DNA of 64,000 bases from Thiomicrorhabdus sp. Kp2 (lineage in GTDB: Bacteria; Pseudomonadota; Gammaproteobacteria; Thiomicrospirales; Thiomicrospiraceae): contig NZ_ARWI01000001.1 in the NCBI RefSeq assembly GCF_000478585.1, positions 1,116,001-1,180,000 of the forward strand, written 5' to 3'. The notes below the pieces were generated by a model. The model was not told the origin of the DNA, ran no database searches, and saw only the letters and a list, made by a program, of their open reading frames with translations. Within the stretch, counting starts at the first letter, position 1. Each line of letters begins with the position of its first letter. The translations under genes and the position numbers were made by a program. This document shows, piece after piece, positions 11,503-20,524 of the stretch.

Positions 11503-11538
11503 AAAAAAACTTCAACCTACCAGGCCTGGTAGGTTGAA
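11503..11538 (-). terminator. Terminator built on the CCAGGCCTGG palindrome, between gph and the trp genes
   Basis: A perfect 28-nt palindrome spans 11511-11538, with the exact decamer at 11520-11529 as its centre. On the minus strand it is followed by seven T (11503-11509). It lies 11 bp after the gph stop and about 42 bp before the small ORF, so it either ends the rpe-gph transcript or acts as an attenuator of trp expression. Confidence 0.8.
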
Positions 11539-13067: not shown

Positions 13068-13192
13068 GTTTACACGCCTTATAAATTTAAATGTTTAAAA
13101 ATAATTCGTGCATTTTAACAGTATCCATTAAAATGGCAAAAAATCTTTAGGGAAACCAACCTTAAACCGAGAGAAACACAGGATAATTCGCT

Positions 13193-13678
13193 ATGATTGA
13201 AGAAGAAAGTTTTGAAAACGACAAATCATCGTCTAAAACCAACAACATAAATACACACTCAAAAAATCAGCGACCAATACATGACCGACTTTTAGGTAAA
13301 GCAATCAATGTAGCCGAATACATTGGTTTATTAGTCATCGCTATTGCGACTATGTTTGCAGGTACGGGTGAAGTGCTTCATATGATAGAAGCCCGCCAAG
13401 TTACCTTGGGTGATTTACTTTTGCTATTTTTATATCTAGAAGTATTAGCCATGATTGGCATCTATCTTAAATCGGGTAAATTACCGATTCGATTCCCAAT
13501 CTACATCGCCATCGTTGCCCTTGCACGATTACTGATTCTTGACCTAAAGTCATTAACCGAGTGGGAGATGATTGCGATTGCTGGTACGATCACTTTATTA
13601 TCCGTCGCAGTACTTATTTTAAGATATGGTCACATTAAAATGCCTTACGACTTAGACCGTCGTAATGATGATATTTAA
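13193..13678 (+). CDS. PsiE-family phosphate-starvation-inducible membrane protein
   Basis: The 161-residue protein has a charged cytoplasmic N-terminus (about 45 residues) and four predicted membrane helices. The segments LEVLAMIGIYLK and IPIRFPIYIAIVALAR-like text match the PsiE family; function is unknown. It is alone between rpe (divergent) and purC (same strand, 49-bp gap), and could be co-transcribed with purC. Confidence 0.8.
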   Translation: MIEEESFENDKSSSKTNNINTHSKNQRPIHDRLLGKAINVAEYIGLLVIAIATMFAGTGEVLHMIEARQVTLGDLLLLFLYLEVLAMIGIYLKSGKLPIRFPIYIAIVALARLLILDLKSLTEWEMIAIAGTITLLSVAVLILRYGHIKMPYDLDRRNDDI

Positions 13679-13727
13679 CAATTAACAGCCCAAAATTTAC
13701 GAACTTTATATTTACAGGAACGCATCT

Positions 13728-14618
13728 ATGCAAGCACTTTATGAATCTAGCCTAACGAGCCTACCATTGATTGGTAAAGGTAAAGTTCGAGACATCTACG
13801 ATATTGATGATAAACATATGTTAATTGTCACCACTGATAGAATCTCAGCATACGATGCCATCTTACCAACACCTATTCCAGGTAAAGGCCGTATCTTGAC
13901 TGAAACCGCTCAGTTTTGGATGAAAAAAATGCAAGATATCGTGCCAAACCAGTTGGCCGAAGGTCTGAATTTAGCCGACTATTTAACACCAGATGAACTC
14001 AAGCAGTTGGATGGTCGTGGCATGATTGTTAAAAAACTCAAGCCTCTCCCCGTTGAAGCCATTGTTCGTGGTTACTTAGTGGGTTCGGGCTGGAAAGAGT
14101 ATAAAAAATCACAACAAGTCTGTGGCATTGATTTACCCGCTGGATTAAAACAAGCGGCACAACTTCCAGAGCCTTTATTTACTCCGTCTACCAAAGCAGA
14201 ACAAGGCGACCATGATGAAAACATCAGCTTTGAGCAGTTAGTGACTATTATGGGCGAAGAAAAATCTAATGCAGTTAGAGATTTAAGCATTCAACTATAC
14301 AAAGCCGCCGCAGAATTTGCACTTGAGCGCGGCATTATCATTGCCGACACTAAGTTTGAATTTGGTGAAGATGATGAAGGTACCATCTATTTAATCGATG
14401 AAGCCTTAACCCCTGATAGCTCACGTTTTTGGCCAGCTTCGAGCTATGAAGTAGGGAGCAACCCGCCAAGTTTTGATAAGCAGTACATCCGTGACTACCT
14501 TGATAGTTTAGACTGGGACAAAAACCCAAAAACAGGCCCAGAACTGCCTGAAGAGATTGTGTTAAAAACCTATGAAAAATATCGTGAAGCGCAATCTCGT
14601 TTAATTGAGAACCTATAA
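13728..14618 (+). CDS. purC: Phosphoribosylaminoimidazole-succinocarboxamide synthase
   Basis: The 296-residue protein ligates aspartate to CAIR in purine synthesis. It begins with GKGKVRDIYDIDDKH and DRISAYDAI, continues with PVEAIVRGYLVGSGWKEY, and ends with the IADTKFEFG and DEALTPDSSRFWP blocks. Length corresponds to the longer, yeast ADE1-like class rather than the 237-residue E. coli form. A strong hairpin terminator starts 44 bp after its stop. Confidence 0.96.
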   Translation: MQALYESSLTSLPLIGKGKVRDIYDIDDKHMLIVTTDRISAYDAILPTPIPGKGRILTETAQFWMKKMQDIVPNQLAEGLNLADYLTPDELKQLDGRGMIVKKLKPLPVEAIVRGYLVGSGWKEYKKSQQVCGIDLPAGLKQAAQLPEPLFTPSTKAEQGDHDENISFEQLVTIMGEEKSNAVRDLSIQLYKAAAEFALERGIIIADTKFEFGEDDEGTIYLIDEALTPDSSRFWPASSYEVGSNPPSFDKQYIRDYLDSLDWDKNPKTGPELPEEIVLKTYEKYREAQSRLIENL

Positions 14619-14625
14619 ACTCTTC

Positions 14626-15357
14626 ATGTCTTTCAAAGAGTCAAAAAAAACACTGTTTTTTAAAGCCACCAATAGAGTTACCAGGCCTGGAAACTCTATT
14701 GGTGGCTTTTTTATTACAGGAACCGATACTGACGTAGGAAAGACCTATGCCGCTGGTTGTGTTGCCCAGACTCTTATTCAAGATGGCTTTAAAATCATTC
14801 CTCGCAAACCAATCGCCTCGGGTTGCATCAAACAAACCGATGGCTCTCTTTTAAGTGAAGATGCGCTGTTTTTAAAAGAAGCGACCCATTCACCTGAGCC
14901 TTTAAAGGTCATTTGCCCTTACAACTTTGAGCCAGCAGTTTCTCCACAAACCGCTATAGAACAAGCAGGCCTGGTTATTACCACCCAAGACCTATTCTCT
15001 GTCTGTAATATCCCTAAAGAAAGTAATCCAAACACGCTGTATTTAGTGGAAGGTGCAGGTGGTTTTTACTCCCCGCTTTGCTCAGATGGTTTAAATCAAG
15101 ATTTTGCTCAAGCACTTAAACTGCCCGTTATTCTAGTAGTCAAAAACCAACTAGGCTGTATTAATCACACCCTATTAACTCTGGCCGCCATTGAACAAGC
15201 AGGCCTGCAAACTTTTTGCATTATCCTCAACTTTTCAGATGAAAAAAATCACGCTCTAGGTATCGAAAACTGGACGGACATCCCCATTTTTCATTTGCCA
15301 ACCAATAACACGCAAGCACTCAAACCTATAGCTGGTTTGACCTCTTTGATTTATTAA
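14626..15357 (+). CDS. bioD: ATP-dependent dethiobiotin synthetase with a terminator-encoded N-terminal extension
   Basis: The core is a clear BioD: P-loop GTDTDVGKT, KPIASG, and VEGAGGFYSPL. It carboxylates 7,8-diaminononanoate in biotin synthesis. Most BioD proteins start four to six residues before the P-loop motif. Here no ATG, GTG or TTG occurs there; the nearest ordinary in-frame start is ATG 14626, giving 27 extra residues before FFITG. Those residues (TNRVTRPGNSIGG and neighbours) are encoded by the long terminator hairpin at 14662-14712. Either the extension is made, or a rare ATT (14698 or 14713) or CTG (14653) start is used. No clear Shine-Dalgarno is seen at 14626. Other biotin genes are not in the window. 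Confidence 0.85.
   Translation: MSFKESKKTLFFKATNRVTRPGNSIGGFFITGTDTDVGKTYAAGCVAQTLIQDGFKIIPRKPIASGCIKQTDGSLLSEDALFLKEATHSPEPLKVICPYNFEPAVSPQTAIEQAGLVITTQDLFSVCNIPKESNPNTLYLVEGAGGFYSPLCSDGLNQDFAQALKLPVILVVKNQLGCINHTLLTLAAIEQAGLQTFCIILNFSDEKNHALGIENWTDIPIFHLPTNNTQALKPIAGLTSLIY
14662..14712 (+). terminator. 18-bp-stem terminator with CCAGGCCTGG loop, inside the bioD 5' coding region
   Basis: A perfect 18-bp stem (14662-14679 with 14692-14709) is capped by the decamer palindrome (14681-14690) and followed by six T (14707-14712). A run of T/A before it makes it usable on both strands. It sits after purC but within the only plausible bioD reading frame, so translation of that frame would compete with hairpin formation. 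Confidence 0.85.
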
Positions 15358-15480
15358 GCATCCCTTTTGTAGTAAGCATTTTGCTATTAACAACTACTAA
15401 TACTTTTGTCTTTTCGACCTTTTTTTTCTAATATAGAGCGCTGATTTTAAAAATGATAAAAACATAACTAAGGATTCCTA

Positions 15481-16758
15481 ATGAAGCTTGAAACGATTGC
15501 CATTCACGGTGGCTACACACCCGAAGAAACCACTAAAGCCGTAGCTGTACCAATTTACCAATCGACGTCTTTTGCCTTTGATAATGCTCAACATGCCGCA
15601 GACCTTTTTGATTTAAAAGTGCCTGGCAATATCTATTCACGAATCATGAATCCAACCAATGCCGTACTTGAAAGCCGACTTGCCGAGATGGAAGGTGGTG
15701 TTGCGGCGCTGGCTGTGGCTTCAGGCATGGCGGCAATCACTTACACTTTGCAAACCATTGCAGAGGCGGGTGATAACTTTTTAAGCGCCAGTGAGCTGTA
15801 TGGTGGAACCTATAATCTATTTGCCCACACTTTACCGCGCCAAGGGCTTGAGACTCGTTTCTTTAATAAAGATGCCAGCAATGACGAAATTAGCGCCCTT
15901 ATTGATAACAAAACTAAAGCAATCTACTGTGAAACCATTGGTAACCCTTCGGGTGGAATTGCTGACGTTGCCCGCTTAGCCGAGATTGCCCATTCACACG
16001 GTATTCCATTAATTGTTGATAGCACAGTGGCTTCGCCTGCACTGTGGAGACCGATTGAAGATGGTGCGGATATTGTGATTCATGCCGCCACCAAATACAT
16101 TGGTGGACACGGCACAACCATTGGTGGTGTGATTGTCGATTCAGGTAAGTTCCCATGGGCAGAACACGCCGAGCGTTTCCCGTTATTGAATACACCAGAT
16201 GTCTCTTATCACGGTGTAACCTATACAGAAGACTTTGGCGCCGCCGCTTTTATTGCTCGTTGTCGTGTTGTGCCGCTAAGAAATACGGGGTCTGTTTTAG
16301 CTGCACAAAGTACTTTTCAACTATTAATGGGCTTAGAAACACTTGCTTTGAGAATGGAACGTACTTGTGAAAACACCCAAAAAGTGGCGGAATGGCTTGA
16401 GAAACACGAATTGGTTTCTTGGGTAAATTATGCTGGTTTACCAAGCCATAAAGACTATGCGCTTGCTCAAAAATATATGAATGGTAAAGCCTCGGGGATA
16501 TTAAGTTTTGGTCTAAAATCAGGACGAGATGGCACCATCAAATTCTATGACGCTTTAAAGCTTGTGGTACGTTTAGTGAATATTGGTGACTGTAAATCTT
16601 TGGCTAGCATTCCCGCAGAAACCACTCACCGCCAGTTAAATGCCGCAGAGTTAAAATCTGCTGGAGTAACTGAAGACATGGTGCGTTTATCGATTGGTAT
16701 TGAACATATTGACGACATTCTAGAAGACTTAGAACAAGCGTTAAACGCATCGGCTTGA
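15481..16758 (+). CDS. metY: O-acetylhomoserine (thiol)-lyase / sulfhydrylase
   Basis: The 425-residue enzyme is a Cys/Met-metabolism PLP protein of the MetY type. The PLP lysine lies in IHAATKYIGGHGTTIGG; the N-terminal IHGGYTPEETT and YQSTSFAF and the YSRIMNPT substrate segment fit MetY better than cystathionine synthase or lyase, as does the length (about 425 rather than 380-400). It makes homocysteine directly from O-acetylhomoserine and sulfide, fitting a sulfide-using organism. It stands alone with its own 123-bp upstream gap. Confidence 0.92.
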   Translation: MKLETIAIHGGYTPEETTKAVAVPIYQSTSFAFDNAQHAADLFDLKVPGNIYSRIMNPTNAVLESRLAEMEGGVAALAVASGMAAITYTLQTIAEAGDNFLSASELYGGTYNLFAHTLPRQGLETRFFNKDASNDEISALIDNKTKAIYCETIGNPSGGIADVARLAEIAHSHGIPLIVDSTVASPALWRPIEDGADIVIHAATKYIGGHGTTIGGVIVDSGKFPWAEHAERFPLLNTPDVSYHGVTYTEDFGAAAFIARCRVVPLRNTGSVLAAQSTFQLLMGLETLALRMERTCENTQKVAEWLEKHELVSWVNYAGLPSHKDYALAQKYMNGKASGILSFGLKSGRDGTIKFYDALKLVVRLVNIGDCKSLASIPAETTHRQLNAAELKSAGVTEDMVRLSIGIEHIDDILEDLEQALNASA

Positions 16759-16806
16759 TTCTAATTTTGAATGTTTAATTTTCAATTTTGAATATCGAAA
16801 ACACCC

Positions 16807-16894
16807 CGTCATTACGAGAAGTAAAGTGACGTGGCAATCTTTGGCCAATATCGCATTCGCCTTTGTAGATTGCCACCTTCGGCTCGCAATGACG
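16807..16894. repeat. REP/MITE-like element of the GTCATTGCGAG type
   Basis: Inverted arms CGTCATTACGAG... (16807-16840) and ...CTCGCAATGACG (16867-16894), with inner GGCAATCT / AGATTGCC pairing. Elements of this form are widespread, non-coding dispersed repeats in proteobacteria. The left arm is degenerate. Confidence 0.75.
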
Positions 16895-16974
16895 AGTTGG
16901 TTTATAATGTTTAATATTGTTAATTTTCTATTTTTACCCTATGCTCACACCATCTTAAATGGCCACAGGGCATG

Positions 16975-16984
16975 CCAGGCCTGG
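16975..16984. repeat. CCAGGCCTGG palindrome, intergenic copy
   Basis: Exact copy (GCCAGGCCTGGC context) upstream of the AlbA_2 gene. Confidence 0.9.
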
Positions 16985-17156
16985 CAAACCCAGTGACTGT
17001 TAATATTCAGTAAACACTGAATAAAAACCTAAAATATTCGCCACTTCTCTTTCTACCCAACACTCTCTTGGTTAAACTCATTCATTAAAGATGACACCAG
17101 GCCTGCTAACTTGTAAAATCTAACGCCTTAACTAATTAATTTCGCATTTCTGCTTA

Positions 17157-18500
17157 GTGAGAGTCCGTTTGCAAGAATCCAACCGTATAGAATTTAAACG
17201 TCAGTTAACTGAAAGCCTTGAAAAAGAGGTTATTGCGTTTTTAAACTCGCCACACGGTGGCGAGATTTACATTGGTGTGGATGATATAACTCAACTCCCT
17301 ATAAATTTACCAGGCCTGGATGATTTACAACTTAAAATCAAAGACTGCATTAAACACAATATAGCCCCATCTGCTTTAGGTTTGTTTGATGTATTGGTTA
17401 CCGACTGGCAAGGCACAAATATCATTAAAATTGTGGTCGCCAGTGGATTAGAAAAACCCTACCACCTCACCAAATTTGGCATGACGCCTAAAGGCTGTTT
17501 TATTCGTATTGGTTCGGCATCTGAGCCTATGAATGAACGTATGATTACCGAGTTATTTGCCACAAGAACCCGTAATTCCATCAGCAATATTCGCTCTCGT
17601 GAACAAGACCTAAATTTTGAACAACTTAAAATCTACTATCAAGCCCGTGACTTACCGCTGAATGACCATTTTGCCAAAAACTTAGAGTTACTCACGCAAG
17701 AGGGTGACTATAATTACGCCGCTTATTTATTGGCCGACCAAAACGGCAACTCCATTAAAGTGGCCAAATATGCAGGCACAAACCGCATTGATTTGATTGA
17801 AAATGAAGAATATGGCTATTGCTGTTTAGTTAAAGCCACCAAAGCGGTGCTCGATAAAATCAAAGTAGAAAACCGCACCTTTTCACAAATTACCTCAACC
17901 ACTCGTAATCAACGGCAAATGCTTAATGAGATAGCGGTACGTGAAGCGGTCATTAACGCGATTGTGCATAACGACTACACGCGTGAAACACCCCCTAAAT
18001 TTGAATTCTTTGCAGACCGTTTAGAAATCACCTCAACGGGTGCTCTGCCAGAAGGTATGGATAAACAAGACTTCTTTAGTGGTATTTCACACCCCCAAAA
18101 CAAAGTGCTTATGCGTGTGTTTAGAGACCTAGAAATGGTGGAGCATTTAGGCTCGGGTGTACCCAGAATTTTGCAACACTACCCACAAGAGAGTTATGTG
18201 TTTTTAAGCAACTTCACAAGAATAGTCTTGCCCTATGCAGAAGGGTTTGTAGAATCACTGACTAAGACGCCACAAGTTACTGACCAAGCTACTGACCAAG
18301 CTACTGACCAAGCAGGGAAGTTACTAGCATTTTGTCAGACAGCTCGTTCTATCCCTGAAATCATGCAGTATCTTGGCTATAAACATCGCACCCATTTCAG
18401 AACCCAAGTACTTGCACCTTTGTTAGAAACAGGCCAACTTGAAATGACAATACCAAATAAGCCCAAAAGCCCAAACCAAAAATATATAACCAAAACTTAA
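17157..18500 (+). CDS. AlbA_2-domain / ATPase-fold putative regulator adjoining the type III RM system
   Basis: The 447-residue protein starts with an AlbA_2 (Schlafen-like) domain: ESNRIEFKRQL, FLNSPHGGEIYIGVDD and GCFIRIGSAS (about residues 5-125). A GHKL-type ATPase-like C-terminal part follows (REAVINAIVHNDY, FADRLEITSTGALPEG, about 255-375), then a TDQA tandem linker and a short winged-helix-like tail. Proteins of this type are annotated as transcriptional regulators or defence accessories. It precedes mod with a 68-bp gap on the same strand, so it may control or belong to the restriction system. The start is GTG 17157; TTG 17169 is an alternative. Confidence 0.75.
   Translation: MRVRLQESNRIEFKRQLTESLEKEVIAFLNSPHGGEIYIGVDDITQLPINLPGLDDLQLKIKDCIKHNIAPSALGLFDVLVTDWQGTNIIKIVVASGLEKPYHLTKFGMTPKGCFIRIGSASEPMNERMITELFATRTRNSISNIRSREQDLNFEQLKIYYQARDLPLNDHFAKNLELLTQEGDYNYAAYLLADQNGNSIKVAKYAGTNRIDLIENEEYGYCCLVKATKAVLDKIKVENRTFSQITSTTRNQRQMLNEIAVREAVINAIVHNDYTRETPPKFEFFADRLEITSTGALPEGMDKQDFFSGISHPQNKVLMRVFRDLEMVEHLGSGVPRILQHYPQESYVFLSNFTRIVLPYAEGFVESLTKTPQVTDQATDQATDQAGKLLAFCQTARSIPEIMQYLGYKHRTHFRTQVLAPLLETGQLEMTIPNKPKSPNQKYITKT
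17310..17319. repeat. CCAGGCCTGG palindrome, coding copy
   Basis: Exact copy inside the AlbA_2 gene, encoding part of NLPGLDD. Confidence 0.9.
18278..18313 (+). repeat. Three perfect 12-bp tandem repeats in the AlbA_2 gene
   Basis: The unit TACTGACCAAGC occurs three times without mismatch and encodes TDQA three times, between the ATPase-like domain and the C-terminal tail. Since the unit is 12 bp, copy-number change keeps the frame and would only alter linker length. Confidence 0.9.
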
Positions 18501-18568: not shown

Positions 18569-20524
18569 ATGAACCCCGTTAAAACCAATATTATTGACCA
18601 AGAATCTATTCAAGAGCGTAATTTACAGTTCTTTTTAAAGAATTTTCCTGGCGTGGTATCAACGGGTGAAGACGGTGATTTGGTGATTAATACCGACAAA
18701 CTAAAATTAGCATTAGACCCAAAAGCTCGTTTTGAAGAGAACGGCTATGAACTTAACTGGGTAGGCAAAAAAGAGGCCTACCACCAGGCCTATGCTAAAC
18801 AAACCAAAATTTTAAAACCATTACAAGATGACAGCAAACTGCAATCAAGTGATGATTTTTTAGCCGACACAACTGAAAACATTTTAATAAAAGGCGACAA
18901 CCTAGAAGCCCTTAAACTGCTTAAAGCCAGCTATTTTGAGCAGATTAAAATGATTTATATTGACCCGCCTTACAACACCAAAAGCGAAAACTTTATTTAC
19001 CGCGACAACTTTACCGACTCTGAAGACACTATTTTAGATGAGTTAGGTTACAGCGCCGACTATAAAGACTACATTCAAAACATCCAAGGTGCCCGAACCC
19101 ACAGTGGTTGGTTAAGTTTTATGTTTCCACGCCTATTATTGGCACGTGATTTATTAAAAGACGATGGCGTGATTTTTATCTCTATTGATGATAATGAACA
19201 AGCGAACTTAAAATTGCTGTGTGATGAAGTGTTTGGGGAAATCAATTTTGTTGAAAATGTCGTTTGGGAAAAGAAAGTAAGTCCATCAAACGATTCAAGT
19301 TACTTTAGCAATGATCACGAATATATTTTAATTTACGCTAAAAGTAAAACTGACAAAGTAATCAATAGGCTAGAAAGAACTTCAGAACATAACAAGTTTT
19401 ATAAAAATACCGATAATGACCCACGCGGACCTTGGAATTCAACCGCCCCTACATGTAATAAGAATAACAATGAGAGACCAAATTTATATTTTCCAATTAA
19501 CAATCCTAACACTGGCGAAGAAGTTTGGCCTAGAAAGGAAGCCGTTTGGGCATTCTCAAAAACAAAGATGAATGAACTACTTGCAGACAATAGAATTTAT
19601 TGGGGTGCTAATGGGAACTCAACTTCACCAAGGATCAAAAACTTTTTAAGCGAGGCAAAAAAAGTCGTCCCAAGAAGTATTCTTCATTATAAAACAGTTG
19701 GACACACCCAATCTGCAACTAATGAAATAAAGTCTCTACTGCCTGAAGCAGGTTTTAATTACCCCAAACCTTCTACATTAATTCGCCATTTAACAAAAAT
19801 AGCTCTTGGCGAAAATAAAGATGACACCATCCTCGACTTCTTCGCAGGCTCGGGCACCACAGGCCAAGCCGTAATGGATTTAAATGCGGAAGATGGTGGT
19901 AATCGTCAATTTATTTTAGTGCAACTGCCCGAAGCCATTGATGCTAAAAAACAAAAAGACGCTTATGAGTTTGTGACCAAAACCCTAAGTAAACCCGAGG
20001 CCACGATATTTGAAATTACCGCTGAGCGCTTACGCCGTGCAGGTGAAAAAATTAAAATCGACCATGCCAATAAAGACGGCATAGAAAATTTAGATATTGG
20101 TTTTAAAGCTTTTGAAATAACCGATGACCCAATGCAGCAGTTTTATAAACCTTTGCATGAGGTAACAGCCACAGATTTAGAACAGTTAGAAATGGCGCTT
20201 TCTCATGAAAGCAGTGAAGCCAATTTAAATACTATTTTGGTAAATTTATTGTTGGCCGAAAAACTGCCCCTTTCTACCCCTATTATTACACTACAAGAAA
20301 ATGCGCTTTATCAAGCGGCTAATGTGTTGTTAATTGTCAATGCCATTGCGTTAGAGTCCATTAAAACACACCTTCTAAACCGATCAGGCCTGGTAAAAGT
20401 AGAATATATTTGTGTGTATTCACCCAATATTAGCAGTGAAACCCGTGATCAGTTTAATCAGGAGTTAATACCAGCCCTTAAACAGACGGGGTTAGATGAA
20501 GCCCGCTTGCGATTTAGAGGGTAA
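18569..20524 (+). CDS. mod: Type III restriction-modification DNA methyltransferase (Mod)
   Basis: This 651-residue N6-adenine methyltransferase has motif IV DPPY at residues 132-135 in IDPPYNTKSENF, and motif I FAGSGTT at about 424-430; this order (IV before I) is the beta class typical of type III Mod. The target-recognition region lies between the motifs. It modifies the asymmetric recognition site on one strand and carries sequence specificity for the Res partner. ATG 18569 has GGAATG upstream. The res gene starts 4 bp after its stop. Recognition sequence cannot be predicted here. Confidence 0.95.
   Translation: MNPVKTNIIDQESIQERNLQFFLKNFPGVVSTGEDGDLVINTDKLKLALDPKARFEENGYELNWVGKKEAYHQAYAKQTKILKPLQDDSKLQSSDDFLADTTENILIKGDNLEALKLLKASYFEQIKMIYIDPPYNTKSENFIYRDNFTDSEDTILDELGYSADYKDYIQNIQGARTHSGWLSFMFPRLLLARDLLKDDGVIFISIDDNEQANLKLLCDEVFGEINFVENVVWEKKVSPSNDSSYFSNDHEYILIYAKSKTDKVINRLERTSEHNKFYKNTDNDPRGPWNSTAPTCNKNNNERPNLYFPINNPNTGEEVWPRKEAVWAFSKTKMNELLADNRIYWGANGNSTSPRIKNFLSEAKKVVPRSILHYKTVGHTQSATNEIKSLLPEAGFNYPKPSTLIRHLTKIALGENKDDTILDFFAGSGTTGQAVMDLNAEDGGNRQFILVQLPEAIDAKKQKDAYEFVTKTLSKPEATIFEITAERLRRAGEKIKIDHANKDGIENLDIGFKAFEITDDPMQQFYKPLHEVTATDLEQLEMALSHESSEANLNTILVNLLLAEKLPLSTPIITLQENALYQAANVLLIVNAIALESIKTHLLNRSGLVKVEYICVYSPNISSETRDQFNQELIPALKQTGLDEARLRFRG

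Follow-up and report, generated by a model that had tools for sequence, protein, structure and literature searches.

Every part of the arrangement that we describe here, i.e., intrinsic terminators, attenuation, and translational coupling, is already known. In the ampC attenuator, the terminator of one transcription unit is the attenuator of the next gene and antitermination is reported to depend on growth rate; the ampC promoter lies inside the last frd gene and the attenuator extends from +17 to +37. Ribosome binding is said to cause this antitermination, and the attenuator region reportedly precedes the ampC coding region. By contrast, the bioD hairpin described below consists of sense codons.

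Two further systems are described in a reporter study in Escherichia coli (PMC4824070). In the pyrBI attenuator, a terminator lies within a translated frame and is repressed by a close ribosome; this frame is a 135-bp leader peptide, and pausing couples ribosome and polymerase. In bioD, the frame is instead the N-terminus of the enzyme itself, and a leader peptide of the pyrBI or trp type is lacking in that no stop codon interrupts the frame from ATG 14626 until bioD ends. In the reporter W48, whose geometry is nearly that of bioD, an upstream gene and its stop codon are followed by a new AUG, a terminator 30 bp further on, and a frame that runs through the terminator. However, W48 is a construct with a short second frame, and its termination was lowered by only ∼10% upon translation, whereas the bioD arrangement is natural, is found at 24 of 58 loci in the family, and has its U-run within a core strand of an enzyme. 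The same study reports that terminators in the first 100 bp of genes work well, that a ribosome within ∼27 nt of the stem, e.g., at a very near stop codon, represses a terminator, that roughly 27 to 30 nt between stop codon and stem are required for full termination, and that RNA with a start codon but without a stop codon gave about half of the reporter expression, which was ascribed to trans-translation and non-stop decay. Of the two models proposed for translational coupling, one is re-initiation (PMC12548453). RNA 3′ ends inside ORFs in E. coli (PMC7815308) and Borrelia (PMC10319736) are similar in that transcripts end in coding regions, but the accessible passages of both reports describe no conserved hairpin shared with the end of an upstream gene. 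The titles and abstract openings of the open-licence literature that we searched describe no conserved terminator in the first codons of a downstream gene.

Here, we report that in a sulfur bacterium, and in part of the related species, the transcription stop of purC seems to be spelled by the first codons of bioD, a stretch that seemingly serves a dual purpose.

Results

The window, i.e., the complete stretch of 64,000 nucleotides of Thiomicrorhabdus sp. Kp2 that was analyzed, contains purC directly followed by bioD. The features of the locus, in window positions, are:

13728..14618, + strand: purC (phosphoribosylaminoimidazolesuccinocarboxamide synthase), a 296-aa ORF with NCBIfam matches, upstream of bioD
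14616-14618, + strand: purC stop codon TAA
14626..15357, + strand: bioD (dethiobiotin synthetase), TIGR00347 above cut-off, resembling the solved BioD structures 1dts and 1a82
14626..14628, + strand: ATG, most likely the bioD start, nearest ordinary in-frame start, 7 nt past the purC stop codon
14626..14706, + strand: 27 codons of the BioD N-terminal tail, codons 1 to 12 before the hairpin and the remainder inside it
14662..14679, + strand: 5′ arm of the probable terminator hairpin, from the predicted fold, pairing kept across species
14680..14691, + strand: hairpin loop of 12 nt, containing the palindrome CAGGCCTG (14682-14689), which is able to self-pair
14692..14709, + strand: 3′ arm of the probable terminator hairpin, from the predicted fold
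14707..14712, + strand: U-tract TTTTTT, codons TTT TTT for Phe-Phe of the predicted first β strand
14713..14715, + strand: ATT, proposed rare start, rejected; Ile30, within the predicted β strand of residues 27 to 32
14719..14745, + strand: BioD P-loop GTDTDVGKT

In NCBIfam, PurC matches NF010568 (437.6 bits; cut-off 251) and TIGR00081 (253 bits; cut-off 189.9). BioD matches TIGR00347 with 140.5 bits against a curated cut-off of 83.3, over residues 36 to 209 when numbered from TTG 14605, and has the P-loop. A purC homolog is the same-strand gene before bioD at 56 of the 58 scored family loci. bioB is found at G000:C1:1319978-1320895, ∼189 kb away from bioD; the two genes therefore do not form one cluster. 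A known riboswitch or otherwise described RNA family at the locus was rejected, as no Rfam covariance model matched positions 13100 to 15500 up to an E value of 1.

The hairpin in the window has a stem of 18 bp, in which the first three T of the run at 14707 to 14712 are paired, and the segment 14619-14730 folds at −40.5 kcal/mol compared to a mean of −18.3 kcal/mol in 200 shuffles (z = −7.2). We regarded as resembling an intrinsic terminator a G+C-containing stem of at least 6 bp with a U-run immediately after it; the window has 18 bp and six T, and the same architecture is present at 24 of 58 family loci. Across 464 kb of the same genome (the window plus 400 kb sampled; 17%), there are 72 terminator-like sites, nine of which sit in a frame that is open for at least 150 codons downstream. 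Among these nine, the bioD site alone has no start codon within the next 40 codons. Therefore, within this 464-kb sample, the overlap at bioD does not reflect a general sloppiness of gene ends.

Several lines of evidence bear on where BioD begins. First, the sequence-only reading of this DNA had stated that no ATG, GTG, or TTG occurs in frame from the hairpin to the P-loop, which the sequence bears out. It had also named ATG 14626 as the only ordinary in-frame start, with a 27-residue tail translated from the hairpin. ATG 14626 is indeed the nearest such start, but TTG 14605, within the last part of purC, shares this frame; similarly, 27 residues do precede Phe-Phe, but the hairpin encodes only ∼15 of them plus the first Phe, and tail codons 1 to 12 (14626 to 14661) stand 5′ of it. 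Second, the AlphaFold2 model of BioD has a mean pLDDT of 90.8 and values of ∼50 for residues 1 to 20, and its first strand comprises residues 27 to 32, including Phe28-Phe29-Ile30. We infer that the tail of ∼27 residues is dispensable. Third, at all 24 hairpin loci, the bioD frame has a start upstream of the hairpin with no stop codon after it, compared to 3 and 1 of 24 loci for the two alternative frames, and is open from 18 nt ahead of the hairpin (7/24 and 8/24 in the others). This start stands 18 to 57 nt ahead of the stem at every one of the 24 loci, and L161 and L112 additionally have a TTG 2 and 6 nt ahead of it. Among these loci, only L008 has a start in or after the hairpin, an ATG inside the β strand that precedes the P-loop Gly by two codons. 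The bioD starts of the relatives were compared, as had been proposed, and they do not all have a separate start past the hairpin. These findings support the earlier idea that translation begins upstream and that the hairpin encodes part of the BioD N-terminus, and we consider this coding architecture very likely. The start lies within −4 to +10 nt of the purC stop codon, the spacing that we used to define coupled pairs, at 20 of the 24 loci. Shine-Dalgarno energies before the starts are weak (+1.6 to −3.9 kcal/mol, raw values at 19 loci). At loci outside the genus of the window, the nearest start is 7 to 14 codons before Gly in 75 of 78 cases, a count that ignores starts fewer than five codons from Gly; 13 of 75 non-family loci also have a start two to four codons ahead of Gly.

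For the comparison across the family, 62 genomes were included, 60 of them with bioD. One bioD locus was fetched from each and 58 were scored; L013 was left unscored because its contig starts within the gene, and L154 because its motif was missed by the pattern (by eye, its T run is interrupted and no hairpin was seen). Over a 300-nt probe, L031 duplicates L015, L033 duplicates L024, and L034 duplicates L111, while L035 was taken as L150 and L032 as L164. A hairpin was scored if it had a stem of at least six pairs plus U-run and its end was 7 to 12 nt upstream of the codon for the P-loop Gly. The scanner returned 25 of 58 loci, from which L153 was set aside (6-bp stem, broken U-run, and an ATG inside), leaving 24. 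These hairpins occupy the same codon position in four genera, and all 24 have the end of the 3′ arm at −7 to −12 nt from the Gly codon. By genus, the hairpin is present at:

g1 (the genus of the window): 18 of 30 loci
g6: 3 of 10 loci
g5: 2 of 9 loci
g3: 1 of 1 locus
g2: 0 of 4 loci
g28: 0 of 4 loci

Outside the family set, no hairpin ending at −7 to −12 was found at 75 bioD loci (of 113 loci scanned in all), and hairpins elsewhere amounted to one at −13 and one at −83.

The hairpin is conserved as a structure at these 24 of 58 loci, as judged from aligned sequences. In a control, 100 rounds of shuffling gave on average 6.5 positive loci and never more than 13, compared to the 25 observed among 58; only DNA more than 20 nt 5′ of the codon for the P-loop Gly was shuffled, and the control is severe because most of the 3′ arm was left in place. 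In the ten stem columns beside the U-run, 223 of 238 cells across the 24 loci are standard pairs, a share that is partly built in because the stems were found by pairing. Double-sided changes, which are better evidence for a kept structure than this share, occur in 25 cells and 6 of the 10 columns, i.e., pairing is kept despite sequence change, as expected of an intrinsic terminator. When the partner was slid by 1 to 3 nt, 81 to 136 paired cells and 2 to 6 double-changed cells were obtained. Two C-G columns (−15 and −14) are invariant. By the same comparison, the bioD frame is conserved through the hairpin, and the U-run also supplies the two Phe codons.

The hairpin is absent at 34 of the 58 family loci and is, therefore, either dispensable or repeatedly lost or gained; a quick tree of the 58 loci requires at least 13 changes of its state, and a more carefully built tree with 41 loci has 10. 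Four hairpin-less g1 loci (L020, L029, L030, and L111) have 127 to 222 nt between the purC stop codon and the P-loop and an ATG 7 codons before Gly. Together with L009, they make five hairpin-less species with a start 7 to 10 codons before Gly, of which these four are the longer-spaced ones. L009 (G007), the sister of L008 (G028), represents a natural experiment in which extra DNA in the hairpin breaks both stem and frame; in L009, the start closest to Gly is a GTG 10 codons upstream. L016, L017, and L022 also lack the hairpin and have a start 7 to 8 codons out, while in L010, L012, L014, and L024 the hairpin is absent and the start has been kept 15 to 22 codons out. Starts 15 to 27 codons out occur without hairpin in L010, L012, L014, L024, L114, L146, L148, L149, L152, L159, and L165, and the range among hairpin-less family members extends from 13 to 27 codons. 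Thus, the hairpin does not account for the tail, which may predate it, and we think that the tail came first and that the putative terminator evolved within it. A Fisher test (18/0 vs. 4/8, p = 8e-5) is not relied on: it takes no account of relatedness, and its outcome is partly predetermined, since little space remains for a start when the hairpin directly adjoins the strand.

In five g1 loci (L010, L012, L014, L016, and L024), the first Phe is replaced (GVF, GIF, GAF, or GLF), the U-run is broken, and there is no hairpin; L023 is an exception, having Gly-Cys-Phe and yet a 21-bp stem. Conversely, Phe-Phe is present without a hairpin in L020, L030, and L111; part of the U-run signal is, therefore, a protein constraint. 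In the outgroup loci L041, L057, L115, and L142, purC adjoins bioD with tight or overlapping stop–start spacing and without a hairpin, which fits an ancestral coupled purC–bioD pair into which the candidate terminator evolved. By contrast, the outgroup locus L045 also has purC upstream, but 137 nt separate the purC stop codon from the P-loop; tight coupling is, therefore, not universal outside the family.

Discussion

We favor, as a reasonably likely account, a model in which an intrinsic terminator of purC evolved in the dispensable N-terminal tail of a translationally coupled bioD. We consider it likely that the hairpin works as a terminator. In this model, most RNA polymerases would stop at the hairpin and yield purC mRNA, and a fraction would read through to yield purC–bioD mRNA, from which bioD would be translated at ATG 14626 by stop–start coupling with purC. 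By-products of stopping would be RNAs with the bioD start and without an in-frame stop codon.

Because a start precedes the stem at all 24 hairpin loci, translation-dependent read-through, which the sequence-only reading had proposed, is geometrically possible. We suggest, at slightly less than even probability, that termination is gated by ribosome re-initiation from purC. If the first purC ribosome dissociates, the hairpin would fold and transcription would stop. If this ribosome instead re-initiates at the bioD start, it would be close behind the polymerase and sit on the 5′ arm, such that the polymerase would pass. A ribosome leaving at the purC stop codon would leave the hairpin mostly free, and a newly loaded ribosome would come too late to block it. 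Indeed, since the E. coli terminator 30 bp past an AUG retained most of its efficiency, a fresh ribosome should be too late, and the weak effect of translation in this reporter makes a strong gate operated by newly initiated ribosomes less plausible (PMC4824070). Ribosome-dependent read-through would thus be plausible mainly for a ribosome re-initiating from purC. The purC stop codon and the stem are 18 to 94 nt apart at the 24 loci and 18 to 30 nt apart at 15 of them; the 43 nt in the window exceed the range of these 15, which counts against the favored model, as do the 34 family loci without hairpin, the long tails at hairpin-less loci, the protein constraint on the U-run, and the long spacer of L045.

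A bolder version of the gate is that bioD transcription in four genera is licensed, i.e., continues only if a purC ribosome re-initiates on bioD. We consider this version doubtful. If true, the default product would be a purC mRNA with an extra start codon lacking a stop, ribosomes starting late on this mRNA would need tmRNA rescue, and biotin synthesis would follow the translation state of a purine gene.

The main rival to the gate is a constitutively leaky terminator, past which a fixed share of polymerases would proceed whatever the ribosomes do. Such a terminator would only set a low bioD:purC ratio, and the overlap with codons would be a by-product of compact spacing. Consistent with this explanation, the presence and absence of the hairpin follow no obvious pattern on the tree, and the E. 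coli study mentions partial terminators within operons and reports a decrease of only ∼10% upon translation for termination 30 bp past an AUG (PMC4824070). However, the position of the bioD start within −4 to +10 nt of the purC stop codon at 20 of 24 loci suits a ribosome carried over from purC, and the geometry would place such a ribosome on the hairpin. We regard the leaky terminator as a possible but rather unlikely alternative.

Far less probable is the explanation that the hairpin mainly stabilizes the 3′ end of purC mRNA or serves as a processing site while bioD is transcribed from a promoter in the 3′ end of purC. A strong stem would suit a stabilizer, and the 127 to 222 nt from purC stop codon to P-loop in four g1 species would provide room for a promoter. 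However, a consensus scan of positions 13601 to 17091 found no σ70-like site on the + strand, purC and bioD are tightly spaced in several outgroups, and the U-run is kept immediately 3′ of the stem, all of which argue against this combination.

A start of BioD at the rare codon ATT 14713, which the sequence-only reading had offered as an alternative and which would place the hairpin entirely upstream of the gene, is very unlikely: ATT can rarely start translation, and an ATG or GTG occupies the equivalent codon in L008 and, by chance or not, at 7 of 75 loci outside the family (L049, L052, L058, L060, L088, L107, and L119), but all seven have another start further upstream, the hairpin loci vary at this codon (ATT, GTA, GTC, ATA, or ATG), a start at this position would remove Phe28-Phe29 and half of the predicted β strand 27-32, within which Ile30 lies, and both the open upstream frame and the starts 7 to 14 codons before Gly outside the genus point further upstream.

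If the terminator of the model that we favor works, it is an instance, both natural and conserved, of a U-tract formed by sense codons for the core strand of an enzyme, and the 24 natural variants with their varied spacing would provide a testbed for whether a re-initiating ribosome decides termination. For gene callers, the implication is that BioD of these species probably starts upstream of an apparent intergenic terminator.

Additional Observations

The palindrome CAGGCCTG in the hairpin loop is abundant in this genome. The window contains 34 copies compared to 0.5 expected (e.g., 14682-14689, 11521-11528, and 14966-14973), and the 2.73-Mb genome contains 1133, compared to none of the reversed control. 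Among 32 genomes of the genus, 15 have high copy numbers (236 to 1173) and the other 17 have 3 to 74; G033, G035, and G036, from three other genera, have 409 to 840. The palindrome resembles HIP1 or DNA uptake sequences. In the 464-kb sample, there are 202 copies, with the symmetrized flanks AA.TTAC-CAGGCCTG-GTAA.TT; 74 lie outside long ORFs, which make up 83% of the bases, and 21 lie in terminator-like settings. Two further terminator-like hairpins in the window, at 11539-11510 and 18791-18774 on the − strand, contain AGGCCTGG, as if the palindrome had been recruited into terminators.

The idea that the bioD hairpin is a mere by-product of CAGGCCTG was rejected, as 9 of the 24 hairpins contain the palindrome and 15 do not (L007, L011, L018, L019, L021, L025 to L028, L112, L145, L150, L151, L161, and L163). 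Eight of these 15 (L011, L018, L019, L021, and L025 to L028) are from genomes with 12 to 74 copies.

Downstream of bioD, the ORF at 17157-18500 has no match in NCBIfam. It precedes an ORF at 18569-20524 (+ strand) that has a weak, below-cut-off similarity to adenine-specific DNA methyltransferases and may encode a type III restriction-modification system's modification subunit.
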